A stretch of 64,000 nucleotides of DNA from Ascidia mentula (lineage: Eukaryota; Chordata; Ascidiacea; Phlebobranchia; Ascidiidae): the NCBI GenBank assembly GCA_947561715.1, contig OX387204.1:16931001-16995000 (forward strand), read 5' to 3'. The first letter of the stretch is position 1, and the number at the start of each line of letters is the position of its first letter. A model generated the notes under the pieces. That model ran no database searches. It worked only from the letters and a program-made list of their open reading frames with translations, and was not told the DNA's origin. Positions 603 through 49,279 of the stretch are shown here, piece by piece. Made by a program: the position numbers and the translations under genes.

Positions 603-1160
603 ATGTCAGAAGCAGTAAACAGTTGTGTGATGATCTGGACGTGTGCTATGTTGATATCTCAAGAGTTTGGCTGTAAGTGTTTTATTCAACTAATTTGATT
701 CAAGAAATGTACAAGTTCATTGTGAGCAAGGCAGTTATCGTTCCATTGTAGGTTCCTCATCGAAACCATGCACATATCGTTTCTTTTCAATGTCCAATGA
801 CAAACGAACTTGGCAGGATGCGAAGGAACAATGTATTGAGCTTGGTGGAAACCTTGCGAGAATTCTTGATTCCGAAACAGAAAACAGACTTATTCGTCTT
901 GCAAACAACAAAACTGGAATGCGTAAAAAACCCATTTGTACTAATTTAAATCTGTTTGGATATTTTTCCAATAAAAATTATCACGTCATTCAGAAACAGA
1001 AAGCAATTTTTTTTCTCGTTTTCCAGATTGTTTTTTAGGTGGTAGACGTTTTGGAAACAAATTTACGTGGCCGGACGGAGTTGTTTTTTACCAGTGGAGC
1101 ATGACAGGTTTTTGTTTTGTTATTCTTCTTTCATGAATTTATGACTAACCGATATCAAGT

Positions 1161-1248
1161 ATCATGATTAAAGCTGCACTGATGAGACCTTTTAGGTCGA
1201 AACAGTGGCCATCTGTCTGCAGCTTATACACAAATATCATGATTAAAG
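1161..1248 (+). mobile_element. Small insertion carrying HHR-1, with 13-bp target-site duplication
   Basis: ATCATGATTAAAG occurs at 1161-1173 and again at 1236-1248, flanking about 62 bp that contain the hammerhead. The equivalent CTLD introns of B1, A2, B2, B4 and B5 have the motif once (with small changes) and no insert, so they act as empty sites. This fits insertion of a short, probably truncated, ribozyme RNA by target-primed reverse transcription. The machinery is not visible in the window. Confidence 0.75.
1171..1225 (+). ncRNA. Type I hammerhead ribozyme motif, HHR-1
   Basis: The invariant core is complete. Stem I is AAGCTGCA (1171-1178) paired perfectly with TGCAGCTT (1218-1225). 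CTGATGA is at 1179-1185. Stem II is GACCT/AGGTC (1186-1190, 1194-1198) with loop TTT. GAAA is at 1199-1202. Stem III is CAG/CTG (1203-1205, 1213-1215). TC is at 1216-1217, so cleavage is predicted between 1217 and 1218. Both ends lie in stem I, which makes it type I. It sits in the CTLD intron of A1. Cleavage activity is inferred from the known family consensus. Confidence 0.82.
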
Positions 1249-4200
1249 TTTGAATTTAAATAAAAAATATAATTCAAAAATTTTATCCCGCATTTTCAAT
1301 TCAAGTCGGCAAGGAACGGATAGATAACAATCATAACTATATTAGTCAAAAATATCCTAGGAAACATGTGGTTTGTTTGTTATGATTCAAGGTTATGGCA
1401 TGGTGGGTTCGCCAATAATGCCATGGACCGGTAAAAAATATACAGCCTGGTTATTTCACCCAAACCCCGGAACTGGTGAGTGTGTTCTGCTTGCAAATTC
1501 TTTTGATTGGGGTTGGTACGCTGGTGATTGCAACAAAAAAATCAACTATATTTGTGAATTCAAAGGTGGGTTTAATAATATTGTTATTCAAACAACTGAC
1601 ATGATGCTGTTTGCAGATCAACCACGAAAAATTGTATTTTCTCAAACAAGTTACTCTGCAATTGTCGGTGAAAAAATCAACATTAAGGGAAAAATTACCG
1701 AACCTTATATAGAAGCGCTAAGTATCAGAGCAATTTACAACCTAAACCAACGGGTTACTTTAGCAACCAACTACACGGGTGTGGACTTCAGTTATTTCAT
1801 CCAGGATATTAGTCCATCTCATTTTGGTAACATTGCAATTGAAGCCATTGGAGTCGAATCAAAATGCAAATTTTCCAAGAGCACTTTTTTGAATGAAGGT
1901 AACAATAACAAGTTTGGATAATGACGGTCGGGTTCCAATACTTTAACATTCATTTACATTTACGCAGTAAAGATTGAGATTGACAGAAATAAAATAGTTG
2001 CGAAAAACTATGGAAATTATGAATCTGTGAGTTGCTCTTTTCCAGAAAATAATCCCAATCCCACCCCACTTACATGGATAAGGTATAATGTATTTGTTGA
2101 TACCCGTAATTACAACAGTGGAAAAAAGTTTTTTACACCGCACTGCCATATAAATAATGTTTTCTTCTGAACTCCACTAGGTTTTAGTATCGTTTGTCAT
2201 TGTTGTGTTGAGATTGTTTTTCACACTGCAGTTACAAATATTTGCTATTAAATCCGATTTACATGAATGTAGCCCATTTGGGTAAACCAGTCCCTAGCCG
2301 TCACTACTCATATGTATAATCCTAAAAAGTTATCATAGTCATCAGAATATTTGTCCAGAAAAACTAAGACGTTTTAAATGTATTGCAATTAGTCAAATTT
2401 TACTCAGGAAATGTGATAACAAGTCACGTTTATCGCGCAGAAATGACGCAATGGTTACCAACAATAGTAGTTCCAACGTTTATCAATCTGTCAACTCCTC
2501 CTACAGTTCATCCACTCTTCACATAACAGTGAATGATGTGAGTGAATCGGGTAATTACACTTGCATGGGAACAAATATGGTTGAATCTAAGATGGAAAAG
2601 AAAACTTTACAAGTGTTCGGTAAGTCAAAATTTTTGTTTCAAAATTGTTTAAATGTTAACGCAATAATGACGATTTCGATCGCATACAGACGTGTAGATA
2701 GCCATGCATGTGGCAGACAAAGAACGCTAGTGAACAACAAAAATCAATATTAAAACAACCCTTTAGTCTGCCACTCTATTGATTTTTTTCAGTGTTATGA
2801 ATTATTCCAATGGGTGCGATCGTCCCTGCTTGGTTCTGCCGCTGCCTTTCACTGCTAAATTCATTTTTTGCAGTTTCTCCAAATATATCTTTGAGCAACA
2901 CAACAATTGTTGCTGAATACGGTCAACAAATCCACGTTGATTGTATTTCGTTTGGATTTCCCAAAGTAACTCTATCGTGGACGAGGTGTGGGAACAGTTT
3001 TAATCGCTATGTGTAACATTACGCATTATAGGCAATTAAATCAATTGATGCCAAGCAAGGACCTGCGCAGTAGAGCGATGCTGCCAATCATGCCATTGCA
3101 TGAAATCCTCTTGCCTTAATGATTCTCACTTTTGGTAAACTTTTGGTGAAAACTTGTGCAGAAACGGAAAAATTATTGAAGCATCATCGATTTTCGGCGA
3201 ATTCAAATCCATATCCTGGTTAAACTTCAATATTACTAACATAGAGGATGCTGGAGGTTATCACTGCAAAGTCTCTAATATTCCTGGTTTGAAAATGACC
3301 TCAGAAACCTTTACTCTTCTTGGTGAGTTTTTGAGTCCTTCTGTTATTTGTTTTTGGGGAAAATGAAAACTGGTACTTTTAGTCACACCCAACATTTCCT
3401 TGTCATCAAGTCACGTCACAATAGCAGAGGGCGAATCTGCAAACGTAACTTGTACTTCATTCGGATATTACAACCCAATAGTGTACTGGACACGGTGAGG
3501 GATTCGTGTTATACGGTTTCTCAATTTAGCGGAAAGCATGTTATGTTAAGTAATACTTTCTCGTTTTCAGTTTCTCCAAAAACTTATCGACTAACTCGTT
3601 GAATCGAATAAATTTTAAAACTACAAGTGTCAGTAAATTTAAGACAGAAAGTACACTTAATATTCAAACTTCCGATGTCAGTGATTCTGGTACTTTTGTT
3701 TGCCACGCTGGATCTAGTTACGAAAGTTTAAACTTTTCCGTTTTGTCCCCACAACAGACACAAGGTATGACGGAATTATTTTGCTGTTTGGCAAATGATT
3801 TTCCACGCTTTACTTTTTATTATCATTCCAGTTTCTTTGTATAATGACACCGTATGTTCAATGTCAATTAGTAAAAACAAAAGCAACATTTGATCCACAA
3901 AGCGATGCTATTTGGCCCTTTGTTCTATAATTTCGTGATATTTATACGTTTGCTCGTTTTTGGTAATGCTAATTGTATTTAACAAACTATTTGACTCCAT
4001 TTTTCCTGTATATATTAGTTTTTTTCTAGGTTTATCTACACCACATTGGTTGCTACCAGCTATTATCGGATTGTCATTTTTATTCATATCGGTTATAATT
4101 GCTGTGCTAGTGTTGGTGAAGTTGAGGTAAATGACCTTTAATTATAACACATAAACCGCAAGCAAAGCTATTACTAAGTTAAAACGTGTTTAGATATTTT

Positions 4201-5963
4201 TGGGCTCGTGAACACAACAGAAAGAAACCCGAAATATACCTTGAAACTGTCAACCCAGGTAAATAGCTGGTATTTAAAAAATATACAGCCTATTAATGCG
4301 TTTTCTCGAATTGTCAAATAGGACTGTTGACAATAATGCTTGTAAAAATTCGACCACTGGTATTTCAGATTCCTCAGATTCTCCAGTTGAAACCAAACGT
4401 CGTCCAGACTCGACTACGATGAGAATTTTTAAGTTTTATTTATATGATCTTTATGTGGAGAGCGCCAACCACGGACATCAAGCATTGAAAGCTCAACATG
4501 AGGTGCGTTGTAAAGTTAACGTTTTGTCACCTAAGTTTTTCTGCATAATATATTCAGGACCGGGTGATATGCAAATACATGGTATACGCAGTGGGCGCCA
4601 CATTCATACTTTTAAATACAGATTTACAATCTGCTCCTGTGAAACATTTATATTTCGTGTGGTTTGTTTTGACAGAAAATAAGAATACAATCAAGACGTC
4701 TTCTCATTGTTGAAACTGCTGAAAAAAACCCAAGTCGAAATCGTTACAAGAATATTTTACCATGTATGACTTTAAGTTTTTTTATTCATAAACGTATATT
4801 TTTAAATACCGTGCACATATAGATGAAAACAACAGATTGATTCTTCGCGGATTAAAAAGCGACGAAAATGATTACATTAACGCATCATATGTTGAGGTTT
4901 GTCACTGCAGCAATGATTTCCTGGAAATTTTACATTGATGGTAATATTTCTCAGGGTTTTAAACAACCGAACAACCCAAGGCCCCATCGATACAACTGTG
5001 AATGATTTCTGGGCGATGGTTTGGCAACAAAATGTCAGAGTAATTGTAATGCTTGCCAATATATGTGAGAAGGGCAAGGTATTGTAATTAAACACTTTAT
5101 GATTATTTTGCAAATCGTTATCATGTCAAAATAAATTTTAAAGTCAAAGTGCGCCGTCTACTGGCCTGAACACATCGGTCACTCCCAAAACCACAAACAG
5201 GTGCAAGTCCACTTAACTAACGTCATCGTTAAAGGGAGTTACGTCATCAGAAAGATGAATATCGAAGAAGGGAAGACCGCATATGTATCGGTATTTCATA
5301 CATTGGGTTTACACCAAATTCATATAACACCTGTTTCTTCTGTTGCAGGAACAACGCACTGTGACGCAATATCACTTCACTGCTTGGCCCGACCACGGAG
5401 TTCCACAAACTACCACTGGTTTACTCAGATTTGTGGAAGAAGTTTTTGTCAATATGCAGCACTGGAAGACATCTTTAAATACAGATATTCCCACTATTGT
5501 TCACTGCAGGTTCGATTAATGTTGTACCGCGATTTGCAATTCACTGGTGTATTTTCCACGTAGACTATGATGTTCATATATTGACTTAACTGTTGATGTT
5601 TTAGTGCCGGCATTGGAAGAACTGGAACTTTTATTGCTGTTGATTATTTAATGAAGGAGTTAAACCAAACTGGTTCAGTTGATGTTTTCAAGGCAGTTTG
5701 TCGTTTGAGAGAGCAAAGAATGGAAATGGTTCAAACTTCCGTGAGTTAACAGCGAGTATGTTTATAAAACTATTTATTAAAGTCCGTCTTTTGTGCTGCA
5801 GGAACAATATGTTTTGCTTCACAGACTCCTTCACGAGTCTTTAAACTTTATGGAAACGAATTTGGATGTCAAACAGTTTAACCAAAGATTAGAACAACAA
5901 AAACGGCAAGAAAACGTGGATTTTTGATGTATGTCGATTTTACAAACGTTTGCTTTTGATTTA

Positions 5964-36489: not shown

Positions 36490-37255
36490 CATAAAATGTA
36501 AATCATGCACTCACAGTTCACCTTCTTCAAGTGACGTCATCAACGAGATATACAGCTCGGTGAAGTTTTCTGATGACGTCATAGCTTCAACAAAGCCGAC
36601 AAAGAATTGAACCTTTTGTTATTCGGATTGTTTTTCTACGTTGGGATTTTTGGTGTTCAAATCCGCGTTCAGGACAATTGCCCAAATGTCACAATATCCC
36701 AAGAATCAGCTTAAAATTAACAATTCGTAATTGTGACACCTGTGACTCGACGAGACGCCGTTAGATATGTTTTAAAATTTGTGTCTCAAAATTGTCAAGC
36801 TTGTTGCCGTAAATCTGCCGGAATTGTACTTTTGAAAAACATTATAAGTTAATGACGTGAACCGCTCATTCTATGTCATGCAAAACATCCTTTTGCGTTT
36901 TATGTTTCTTTAATGACTTCAATGAGTTTAGCATCTTGGCTGCTACACCTGTACTTATGTTCAAGAATACATTTTTTTATGAAAACCGAAATTAAAAATA
37001 TGTATTAGAACTTGTTCTATTCCTATGTGAAGTCTGAACAACGATCATGCAAACAGCTCAGTTGAGGTCGTTGTTACAACTACGTGCAAAGGTTGAAAGT
37101 CAAAACCTATGAAGACCAGTTCTATTTTGTTAGACAACTTTATCATGATTAAAGTTGGAATTGAAAACTTTACAGTGGGTTTTCTGCATAAATTTCACCC
37201 TGATTTATGTAGAGATGAGGTTTTATTTTGTTCTTGATTGTTTTTTTGGAAAGGA
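36490..37255. repeat. Inter-unit spacer 4, fused into a CTLD intron
   Basis: Spacer sequence (TGACGTCA at 36532 and 36574) runs to about 37140, then joins ATCATGATTAAAGTTGGAAT, which belongs to the CTLD intron of full copies. At about 37165 it jumps again to the intron before the second half of the second two-exon Ig domain. No gene is present in it. Confidence 0.65.
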
Positions 37256-40314: not shown

Positions 40315-41080
40315 CATAAAATGTAAATCATGCACTCACAGTTCACCTTCTTCAAGTGACGTCATCAACGAGATATACAGCTCGGTGAAGTTTTCTGATG
40401 ACCTCATAGCTTCAACAAAGCCGACAAAGAATTGAACCTTTTAATATTCGGATTGTTTTTCTACGTTGGGATTTTTGGTGTTCAAATCCGCGGTCGGGAC
40501 AATTGCCCAAATGTCACAATATCCCAAGAATCAGCTTAAAATTAACAATTCGTAATTGTGACACCTGTGACTCGACGAGACGCCGTTAGATATGTTTTAA
40601 AATTTGTGTCTCAAAATTGTCAAGCTTGTTGCCGTAAATCTGCCGGAATTTTACTTTTGAAAAACATTATAAGTTAATGACGTGAACCACTCATTCTATG
40701 TCATGCAAAACATCCTTTTGCGTTTTGCGTTTCTTTAATGACTTCAATGAGTTTAGCATCTTGTCTGGCTGCTACACCTGTACTTATGTTCATGAATACA
40801 TTTTTTTATGTAAACCGAAATTAAAAATATTTATTAGAACTCGTTCTATTCCTATGTGAAGTCTGAACAACGATCATGCAAACAGCTCAGTTGAGGTCGT
40901 TGTTACAACTACGTGCAAAGGTTGAAAGGCAAAACCTATGAAGACCAGTTCTATTTTGTTAGATAATTTTATCATGATTAAAGTTGGAATTCAAATAAAA
41001 AATATAATTGAAAAACTTTATCCCATATTTTCAATTCAAGTGGGCAAAGAACGAATAGATAACAATCATAACTATATTAG
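40315..41080. repeat. Spacer 5 fused to CTLD intron, upstream of ZP gene
   Basis: It has the same spacer-to-CTLD-intron joint as at 37140 (CCAGTTCTATTTTGTTAGA then ATCATGATTAAAG), so both loci share one deletion event. Only the first TGACGTCA octamer (40357-40364) is kept. It continues through the CTLD intron up to AACTATATTAG, after which ZP-gene sequence begins. An open frame from ATG 40938 runs into the first ZP exon, but it begins with no clear signal peptide. Confidence 0.6.
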
Positions 41081-44000
41081 GACTTTAAATTCGAGCGATG
41101 GAATGATTTCTTGTGGCGCCGCAAACACAACAATTACGTAAGTGGGAAATTTGGCGTAGGAAGTGTTTGAATGGGAGGTACTCTTGTTTTTGATACTTTA
41201 TTTACGAAACAGGAGTTCGGAAGTCGCATGCGGGCTGATATTTAACCAGAATATCAGAAAATATTTCCCCAGTGCCGTTCTTCATTGCACTTCGTTTTCT
41301 TCTTTTCTAACATGTTTTTGAGACATTGCCACTAGAAAAATAGAAAGAGAAAATGATCGCACAAATGTTTGGCACGCGATAGATAATACGCAACAAATAT
41401 GACTCGTATGACAAGTTATGTACCCTCATTTTAATTTGTCATTTTTTGGTAGCTTTAGTAGCTGGTCTTAATGTTATTTTAGTAAGCTTTAATATCTTCA
41501 GAAGCTTACTTGGTTAGAAGGTGGCCTGCTGTAAACAAGTATTGATACGTATTAAAATTTTGCACATTTTTAAAGGTTGACAAGCGAACTTTTGAGCAAT
41601 TCCCCAATCAGTCCGACTGGTTCTTTCGATTTTCTGGACGCCTCACCCAGTGGTTCGCCCCCAAACTGCTCTTTTCCTGGAACAGCTGGCGACATTGTGT
41701 TGGATCAGTTTTTCGGCCAGTGCGCCTCGTCTGTGGAAGTAAGCGATTGTTGGGAAGTTATTTGAGATTTAACAACCTTATAATTGGCAGACTATCCTGG
41801 ATGTTTAAGATTGTTCACTTTTTAAAGGTGTTTTTCAAAATTCCGCCCTTTCTTTATTCAACCTTGTTTATCTTTTGATGGTTAAAAACCGTAATACTTG
41901 ACACAACGATTGATATTAAGAAAGTAAATTTTAATTGAAAATAAAGTTTTCTGTAATCCCTTATAAACTGGCACCAATCATTGCTTTTGAAAACTTACAT
42001 TTTTTTGTGTCCAGGAAAGCGGGAATTTACTTGTGGTGAACTACACGTTGTGTGTATCACCGGTGGACGATCCGGCCGGCTTAATATCACGTGATGTCTC
42101 AAGTCTCATCTACTTCACCTGCACGTTTGTACGCAACGTCACAATATCCGATCTACGCATCGAGTAAGTACGATATTTGATCAGAAGTAGGAGTTTTCCA
42201 CATAAATTTTTTTGTGTTGCTTGAAAAATGAGCTTAAAGTTTAAAAATGAAATGTCGCTGATCGTCGCTGATGTTTCAAGCAACACAAAAAAAATTCTGT
42301 GTTTAAGAACTTCGGTGTTCAGTACCTCGTCATATTTCTACTACTCATGTAATTGAAGTGCTCGGCAACATGTGTGGCGCCAATTCTTACCACAGGCGAT
42401 AAGTTAACGTTATACAACCGGTCTAAAACACCAAACAGGGCTTTTCCCCCCACCCACCCCCCCCAAATGGCACCAATTTTTATAAATATAAGATGTATAA
42501 ACAACCAGGGCACATATCCACTTGCAAAAATCACGTTTATGCAATAAACCAATAATGATCAGTGACCGCAGACAGTTGTGCTTCGATATATAAGACCAGT
42601 CAGTCGGCAAGACCGTCGTCAGCTGCACTGATGAGACTGGGTCGAAACAGTGTGTACAACTGTCTGCAGGTCAATGCAAAAACCGTGTTTTTCGCATTCG
42701 CTTGCTTTCGTGTTCCGCGAGACTCACAACAATAAAATAACGCAAGCTCTACGTGTGTTTCTTCAGCCGCATTCGGGCTCAAGCACCAGGAGCCCAGGGA
42801 GAGTTTGTTGTGGATGTTACAAGATTCAGCAACTCCGCCTTTAACGAAACCGATCCAAGCCAGGAAGTGACAGTTGAGGATCCAGTTTACGTCGGTCTTG
42901 GTGTGAGAGGTGGAGAGTCGGCCGACCTCGTGCTTCAGGTTTGTAATTTGTCAAGTTTCATATTTCAATCCTGGAAGGTCGTTGAAATAGGTGATGGAGA
43001 AGTAACAGAAACGTTTGTTTTACGTTTTTACTGTGTTTCTTTTTAAATGCTGAATCCTCGTCGTTTCATGCCGAAAATTTATGTGCATTTTTTTTATTAT
43101 TTAGTCCAAAAAAATGTGCCACAAAAAATCGACATCAACAACCACTGTAACTTGTCATGCAAAACAAGCTTTAAAAAAGTCTTTGGCATTACAGTGATGA
43201 AAAATGACAAACTTCTAACGAATCTGGAAAGTGCGTTTTATTTGTAAGTTGTTAGTTTTAAAAATGTGTTATATCAACAGGCTTTGAATTGCTGGGCAAC
43301 CCCTACTTCAAACAGCAGTGATATGGAACGATACGATATCATCGTAGACAGGTGGGCCATATATTTGCTTATATATGTTTCTATGATGTAGATATTTCAA
43401 TCGTATTCTGATGTCATTCAAAAAGCTTTAAGCCTCTAATTGTTGTCGGCTTATTTATTGCTCTGGGAACATCAACTTCGCTTACGCTGTTGACATCATC
43501 AGTTTTGTGAATGTAATAATGGCCAACTATTTCGGTATCCCGATATTTTGTTGTAAATACTTGTTTGTATTACCAGCGCTCAAGGTCTAACAAAATCTCC
43601 AATCCAAGTTCTCCAAATCTTAAGACAAACAGATGAAGATTACTTAATAACATAATTTTTTCATAAATACTAACAAAAATGGTTGTTTGAGGAACCTCGG
43701 GCCAATGACGGTTTAAATTAAAGAAAAAGGCAAAAATTCCATACATTGTTTCAACTGAATTTCATGCAGTTGTGAGGCCAACACTAATTCCTGGGAACAC
43801 AACATGATGATCACCAACTATGCCGGACCTTACGTCGAATTCAAGTTTAATTCTTTCGTGTGGACGAGTCGTATTGACGGCCTCCAAGAGACCCGCATTG
43901 TGAGGTCACTGTGTGTCCCAACGCCATTGCCGAGTTCCAATGTCTGGTGGTAAGTCTTCCATGGCCGATCACAATGCGACAAAATATTTAGTTGGCTTTC

Positions 44001-49067: not shown

Positions 49068-49279
49068 ACTATTTTGATTCATATGTGCAAAAAAAGCCAT
49101 AATATTGCAAAGCTGCAGACAGGGTGTGTACACGCACTGTTTCGACCTGTAAGGTCTCATCAGTGCAGCTGTTGTGTGGCACTGTGCTAGCTTTCACACT
49201 AGCAGGCACACTAGTCTCCACTTTGTGGTACCTTTCGGTCAACGTCGATCTGCAGGGTACCCTATACTATTTTGATTCA
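49068..49279 (-). mobile_element. 184-bp insertion bearing HHR-3, 14-bp target-site duplication
   Basis: ACTATTTTGATTCA occurs at 49068-49081 and 49266-49279, flanking 184 bp absent from intron 1 of every other copy, where the motif occurs once. In minus orientation the insert begins near AGGGTACCCTGCAGATCG, has the hammerhead in its second half, and ends with a T-run (GGCTTTTTTTGCA). I see no Pol III A/B boxes and no open frame, so it is a non-autonomous element. Confidence 0.8.
49111..49170 (-). ncRNA. Type I hammerhead ribozyme motif, HHR-3
   Basis: Read on the minus strand: AGCTGCA (49170-49164) pairs with TGCAGCT (49117-49111) as stem I; CTGATGA at 49163-49157; stem II GACC/GGTC (49156-49153, 49147-49144), extendable by a T-A pair; GAAA at 49143-49140; stem III CAG/CTG (49139-49137, 49122-49120) with a loop containing GTGTACAC; TC at 49119-49118. 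Predicted cleavage lies between 49118 and 49117. It is antisense to the host gene B4, so the B4 pre-mRNA would not carry an active ribozyme. Confidence 0.82.

Follow-up and report, generated by a model that had tools for sequence, protein, structure and literature searches.

Non-LTR retrozymes of metazoans, as described by Cervera and de la Pena (2020; PMC7229834), consist of tandem units of 150–450 bp with a type I hammerhead, a GC content below 50% and target duplications of more than 4 bp, and their motifs can number thousands per genome. Which autonomous element moves them has been stated as an open question, and Penelope-like elements (PLEs) have been proposed because both carry hammerheads and co-occur (PMC7229834, PMC7761336). 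Further features of this class are the lack of LTR, PBS and PPT and expression as linear and circular RNA. The reverse transcriptase (RT) of an Anolis PLE begins cDNA at two neighboring internal sites and elongates from both strands, behavior that its authors tied to the optional 30–40-bp PLE tail; in vitro, the start sites were alike for the top and bottom strands, and the hammerhead of this PLE required protein (PMC11167929). According to PMC3846280, one of the inverted pLTRs of a PLE may or may not carry the tail, and most pairs are arranged head-to-head.

Two inserts in a receptor gene array

The window (the whole 64-kb stretch of DNA analyzed here) has a GC content of 35.7% by base counts. 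Judging by Pfam matches in the ten ORFs scanned, none of them at the curated cut-off, it contains receptor genes of the C-type-lectin/Ig kind, arrayed in tandem and with short introns. A protein search with a receptor ORF found nothing, and an ORF near 42.7 kb, amid the receptor genes, is weakly ZP-like (16 bits against a cut-off of 24.6). The array contains three hammerhead motifs, two of them in short inserts:

1160–1173, plus strand: target-site duplication of insert 1, left copy, 14 bp
1171–1225, plus strand: HHR1, the type I hammerhead fold of insert 1, with predicted cleavage between 1217 and 1218
1174–1234, plus strand: insert 1, a putative 61-bp 5'-truncated retrozyme copy of family R1 with a short 3' tail reaching 17 nt past the cleavage site
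1235–1248, plus strand: target-site duplication of insert 1, right copy, 14 bp
42620–42669, plus strand: HHR3, a third and more diverged hammerhead
49068–49081, plus strand: target-site duplication of insert 2, ACTATTTTGATTCA, 14 bp
49082–49265, minus strand: insert 2, a putative 184-bp retrozyme copy of family R2 with a long 3' tail, antisense in an intron of another receptor copy
49111–49170, minus strand: HHR2, the type I hammerhead of insert 2
49266–49279, plus strand: target-site duplication of insert 2, second copy, 14 bp

The first-pass annotation had described insert 1 as a mobilized ribozyme, 62 bp long and flanked by a 13-bp direct repeat; HHR2 and HHR3 did not figure in that finding. 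Insert and repeat are both present at slightly different lengths: the repeat, TATCATGATTAAAG, is identical over 14 bases at 1160–1173 and 1235–1248, leaving 61 bp between its copies. As that annotation had also claimed, the paralogous introns are empty: all five that can be aligned on both sides are without insert 1, which is also missing from two further copies (37141 and 40970) that align on the right side only. The site of insert 2 is likewise empty in 5/5 paralogous introns alignable on both sides. The simple reading is one gain per host copy for each insert rather than five exact losses, such that the empty sites represent the pre-insertion state and supply two before/after cases within one gene array.

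Insert 1, which lies in sense orientation relative to its host gene, is identical over 61/61 bases to the native R1 unit of another locus (L089) when read over the boundary of the ~284-bp tandem unit. Since it occupies one of six paralogous copies and is identical to another genomic copy, insert 1 is young. Judged by sequence, it appears to be a 5'-truncated retrocopy of an animal retrozyme of ~284 nt with a type I hammerhead; the insertion and its membership in a mobile family thus stand, while the insert itself is a short piece of a longer unit and not a self-standing ribozyme element. Insert 2 matches the native 291-bp unit of a tandem locus (L092) at 182/184 bases, and among 45 matches listed, six other genomic places are identical to it over all 184 bases. 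In a search for a tRNA-like (SINE) head, no tRNA was detected in the window, and none of the 7 rows of a tandem-repeat scan of the window lies at the inserts.

Two further observations concern the same array. At a rearrangement junction (window 40923–41000 and 37094–37170), sequence from a gene flank is connected to the same intron within ~6 nt of the insert 1 site, which may perhaps be a cut-prone site. Just upstream of HHR3 lies a degenerate, inverted hammerhead-like stretch (about 42565–42610), and the pair folds as a long hairpin (42541–42740, z −3.8); together they are perhaps an old two-ended insertion. A candidate duplication around HHR3 was not accepted, as its best repeat (13/16) was equalled in 11 of 200 shuffles.

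The hammerhead fold

HHR1 reads, in order, AAGCTGCA (1171–1178), CTGATGA, stem II GACCT/AGGTC, GAAA, stem III ACAG/CTGT, C1217^T1218 and TGCAGCTT (1218–1225). Stem I pairs AAGCTGCA with TGCAGCTT over 8 bp, three of which draw on bases from the left repeat copy, and the stem III loop has 7 nt. The motif thus has the complete conserved core (CUGANGA ... GAAA ... NUH), the three helices and the open-ended helix I of a type I hammerhead; both the sequence reading of 1171–1225 and a structural descriptor bore out the core and the 8-bp stem I first reported for it. HHR1 would be expected to cleave itself, after C1217. Stem I is continuous in HHR1 and HHR2 (7–8 bp) with no internal loop seen, and a contact between loop I and loop II, as in the fast natural hammerheads, is therefore not evident from the sequence.

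An Rfam covariance search, which had been suggested as a check, gave no match at the gathering score for any family in the whole window. A permissive search of 401 bases ranked the RAGATH-1 hammerhead (RF03152) at 23.3 bits (cut-off 56.3, E 0.11) and the type III hammerhead (RF00008) at 18.2 bits (cut-off 48.5, E 0.32). Both families share the core and stem layout of the window motifs, which score 23–31 bits against RAGATH-1 (E 0.0019 to 0.11 in short stretches) and 18–25 bits against type III, far under those cut-offs. A covariance model built from the three window motifs rises above noise only at those three, its own training set (HHR1, 82.7 bits). Their alignment has 41 invariant positions and 93.6% of its pair cells paired; no covariation is seen in the helices of these three sequences, and the alignment alone is therefore no test of the fold. 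By nearest-neighbor folding, the hammerhead fold makes up 1.5% (HHR1), 7.8% (HHR2) and 1.6% (HHR3) of the ensemble, versus 40% for a phage type III motif. A conserved alternative pairing, CACUG/CAGUG, was considered as a built-in off state and set aside as not remarkable because with random loop III sequences the hammerhead probability was no higher in 18, 67 and 68% of trials (300 each).

A chance resemblance to a hammerhead would agree with the lack of an Rfam match at the gathering score and with the minimum-free-energy fold of HHR1, which differs from a hammerhead. It is at odds with frequency: a descriptor demanding at least 5, 3 and 3 pairs in stems I, II and III has three hits in the window (1179 +, 42628 + and 49163 −), against four in 300 dinucleotide-preserving shuffles combined. 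In the genome (a 195.8-Mb assembly of 79 contigs), an exact 24-mer from the 3' end of HHR1 has 772 matches against 0 for its reversed control, and a loose hammerhead pattern occurs at 5349 places, overlaps included, against 387 for the reversed pattern. A chance origin is therefore rejected as vanishingly improbable: by structure, recurrence and insertion evidence the hammerhead motif is real, though unrecognized by curated models at their cut-offs.

Outside this genome, a type III-like hammerhead was seen in two near-identical IMG/VR viral contigs, at 2300–2560 (−) in L001 and 1900–2160 (+) in L002. It reads GCTGTC TGTAGGT agtg ACCTGCA CTGATGA GACC..GGTC GAAA CAGC, lies shortly upstream of an ATG with a Shine-Dalgarno-like stretch, and has no Rfam gathering match.

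Retrozyme families and their junctions

The genome-wide search for insert 1 that the first-pass annotation had called for uncovered a mobile family, R1, with duplications at its copies; overall, that annotation's interpretation is supported. The R1 tandem unit measures 283 and 284 bp in two tandem loci and 283–286 bp overall. Among the first 100 of the 772 places listed, 17 same-strand neighbors lie less than 3 kb apart: 11 at 284–286 bp, one at 570, one at 273 and four at 2.1–2.8 kb. HHR2 belongs to a related family, R2, with a unit of 291 bp. The units have GC contents of 0.475 (R1) and 0.478 (R2), and their circular folds are 67% and 64% paired. Tandem units within 150–450 bp, one type I hammerhead in each, a GC content below 50% and target duplications longer than 4 bp lead us to class R1 and R2 as putative animal (metazoan) retrozymes, although the two window inserts are themselves shorter than one unit. 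A search of prokaryote genome contigs returned no match. Other hammerhead families recur among the listed places on contig C1, for instance CTGATGATGGCATAAG..., CTGATGATGAACGCAG... and CTGATGAAGCGAGATC..., and stem II differs between hammerhead families of this genome by paired substitutions read by eye, such as TGGC/GCC versus TGAC/GTC.

We read the junctions of R1 in loci selected from the places listed first on contig C1 (L011–L030), in the best 30 of 40 scored from 1776 candidates (L061–L090), and in every close minus-plus pair (ten in number) within the first 100 of the 772 places, a sample that by its construction leans to young copies. Some loci are represented twice (L024/L076, L021/L061) and some share flanks (L011/L012, L085–L087). 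In 51 R1 copies, the match to the unit past the cleavage site ends at 13–17 nt in 25, at 40–55 nt in 12, at 18–29 nt in 10 and at 7–9 nt in 2; the remaining two run on, being internal tandem units. Several of the 18–29-nt ends, insert 1 of the window included, are short ends extended by chance matches to the target. R2 copies end at about 14–16 or 36–45 nt, except for internal units of the L092 array. Insert 1 (17 nt) thus has the short end and insert 2 the long one. When the 51 R1 copies were scanned singly, a one-sided scan run without a mispaired control, 28 had a repeat of at least 12 nt, lying close to the end and again upstream of the copy, and 23 had none of that length (11 with a shorter repeat, 12 with none).

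Opposite-strand R1 neighbors are ordered minus-then-plus, by 10 to 0 within 600 bp and 11 to 1 within 3 kb (first 100 listed of 772). Such two-ended loci combine one short and one long tail in 18 of 19 cases, the exception being L016 with two short ends, and their outer flanks share 12–16 nt in 17 of 19 (L016 and L103 share 8 nt), while in 210 comparisons of mispaired ends, drawn from 15 of the 19 loci, the longest shared stretch is 8 nt. The 19 include L062 and L082, which fit, and L016, which does not; a diverged variant (L014) was left out, and the ends of L078, L103 and L106 were read with anchored tails. Because L011 and L012 share flanks and represent the same event, 17 independent events obey the one-short-one-long rule; with random ends, the chance of 17 unlike pairs would be at most 0.5^17, about 8 in a million. 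The plus-side end is the short one in 9 of these events and the long one in the other 8. Which side receives the short end therefore looks random, which is compatible with the likeness of top and bottom strands in vitro reported in PMC11167929.

R2 behaves in the same way: all five two-ended loci pair a long end with a short one (loosely placed, about +5 to +15), and four of the five share 12–13 nt (L013 shares 8), against at most 9 nt for mispaired ends (20 comparisons); L092 is uncounted because one outer end lies outside the locus. Duplications of resolved two-ended members measure 12–16 bp, mostly 12, suggesting a 12-nt stagger with fortuitous matches at the junctions. Either arm can be multimeric: two minus and four plus R1 units lie at C1:17581339–17582704, and in L092 the minus arm comprises seven R2 units and the plus arm five.

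Penelope-like elements and the proposed mechanism

The same genome holds many PLE frames: a GIY-YIG search, in which 150 of 382 candidates were scored, gave 121 matches, some of them in open frames of 800–892 codons. In the family we examined (L041–L055), 2,870-bp units carry a minimal hammerhead and frames of up to 892 codons with GIY-YIG. Opposite-strand neighbors among the 121 listed matches are again minus-then-plus, by 17 to 0 within 5.5 kb. Eight of ten head-to-head candidates have one end at +63–67 and the other at +101–107 from the presumed cleavage site, with 12–13 nt shared; one of the eight is an array at C67:6133715–6147185 (minus-minus-plus-plus-plus, 2,870-bp period) within one 12-nt duplication. 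Of the two exceptions, one (L107/L108) has no shared duplication, and the other (L113/L053), in which both ends are short and the flanks are mirror-identical, is not a clean insertion. A 12-nt floor of resolved duplications is thus common to the retrozymes and this PLE family. Neither the inserts, at 61 and 184 bp, nor the units, at 284 and 291 bp, have room for an ORF with RT and GIY-YIG endonuclease, and R1 and R2 are therefore not PLEs themselves; they nevertheless form head-to-head pairs within one duplication with a tail at one end only, the mark of Penelope-type integration. A one-sided tail on inverted repeats has already been reported for PLEs (PMC3846280); the pattern in retrozymes is new in this reading, and a link between retrozyme and PLE junctions was not found in print in the open-access literature searched.

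We consider it probable, and would hold with good confidence, that retrozyme RNA is copied into DNA by PLE machinery priming from both target strands, and that insert 1 is a young 5'-truncated retrocopy made in this way. A retrozyme RNA spanning the ribozyme site, as a circle or an uncleaved oligomer, would be captured by a Penelope-like RT/GIY-YIG protein, and the target DNA would be cut with a stagger of ~12 nt. Synthesis of cDNA would start internally on the RNA, a short way downstream of the hammerhead and at either of two favored positions, for R1 ~16 or ~44 nt past the cleavage site. Both cut strands would often prime, presumably with two enzyme units on one cut and one strand per start place, yielding head-to-head insertions, and repeated rounds on the RNA would turn the arms into tandem arrays. 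Insert 1 would be the simplest case, in which one strand primed at the upstream start place, synthesis stopped after 61 nt and the cDNA was joined to the target, perhaps via an AG match. R1 and R2 share no sequence above chance-level matches with the PLE family examined, which counts against a PLE helper. The junctions of R1 and R2 nonetheless bear the PLE signature, and the genome around them is rich in GIY-YIG PLE frames, which makes PLEs a likely helper for animal retrozymes.

Mobilization by a LINE of the APE or RLE type, as for SINEs, in which a single bottom-strand nick primes cDNA at the 3' end of the RNA, would also fit the 5' truncation and target duplications, and LINEs are named among possible retrozyme helpers in PMC7229834. 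We regard it as unlikely, since no poly(A) tail was seen by eye in the copies read, the 3' ends are internal and of two preferred kinds, both target strands are primed with one end type each, and the duplications are 12 nt or slightly longer as in the GIY-YIG PLE family. Head-to-head copies might also arise independently of two-strand priming, either from fold-back self-priming of one cDNA, which has been proposed for rotifer Penelope elements (PMC3846280), or from recombination of separate insertions. A complete fold-back should leave equal tails, and L016, with its two short ends, is the sole R1 locus that could fit; separate insertions would not have one duplication in common, as 17/19 R1 loci do. 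With unlike tails in 18/19, this alternative is largely refuted, and we give it little credence. The one-short-one-long rule thus tells two-strand priming from fold-back self-priming, and it yields simple predictions for in vitro work.

A different possibility concerns function: insert 1 could be a ribozyme retained by the host to regulate its receptor gene, like the conserved hammerheads of RECK and C10orf118 (PMC3088659). Its intact core and its sense orientation within the intron would suit such a role, yet it is found in one of six paralogous copies at 61/61 identity to another genomic copy, as expected for a young insertion, and insert 2 runs antisense to the gene that it sits in; host retention is thus highly improbable. 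Returning to copying by PLE machinery, a broader analogy seems to us reasonably likely, in which retrozymes relate to PLEs as SINEs do to LINEs: the PLE protein would use both strands of a single staggered cut to copy small ribozyme RNAs, with a different start place for each strand and in repeated rounds, to give head-to-head tandem arrays in one event.

R1 and R2 resemble the metazoan non-LTR retrozymes of Cervera and de la Pena (PMC7229834) in unit, hammerhead type, GC content, duplications and abundance of motifs. They differ from the retrozymes as presented in that account in that their integration marks are readable (~12-bp duplications, two preferred 3' ends and head-to-head two-ended insertions), and in that stem I of the two window inserts has no visible internal loop. 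With the PLEs Poseidon of Anolis (PMC11167929) and Penelope of Adineta vaga (PMC3846280), as those reports describe them, they share head-to-head and tandem order, short duplications, a hammerhead close to the start sites, a tail of ~30–40 bp that is optional at one of the two ends, and an AT-rich target (judged by eye for R1 and R2). Helix III has 4–5 bp in the R1 and R2 hammerheads, whereas those of PLEs are described as minimal, and the duplications are ~12 bp, compared with 8–10 bp in the A. vaga cases (PMC3846280). The PLE family of the same genome differs from R1 and R2 in being coding and in its minimal hammerhead, and is like them in its 12–13-nt duplications, its two end classes 35–44 nt apart and its minus-then-plus arrays.
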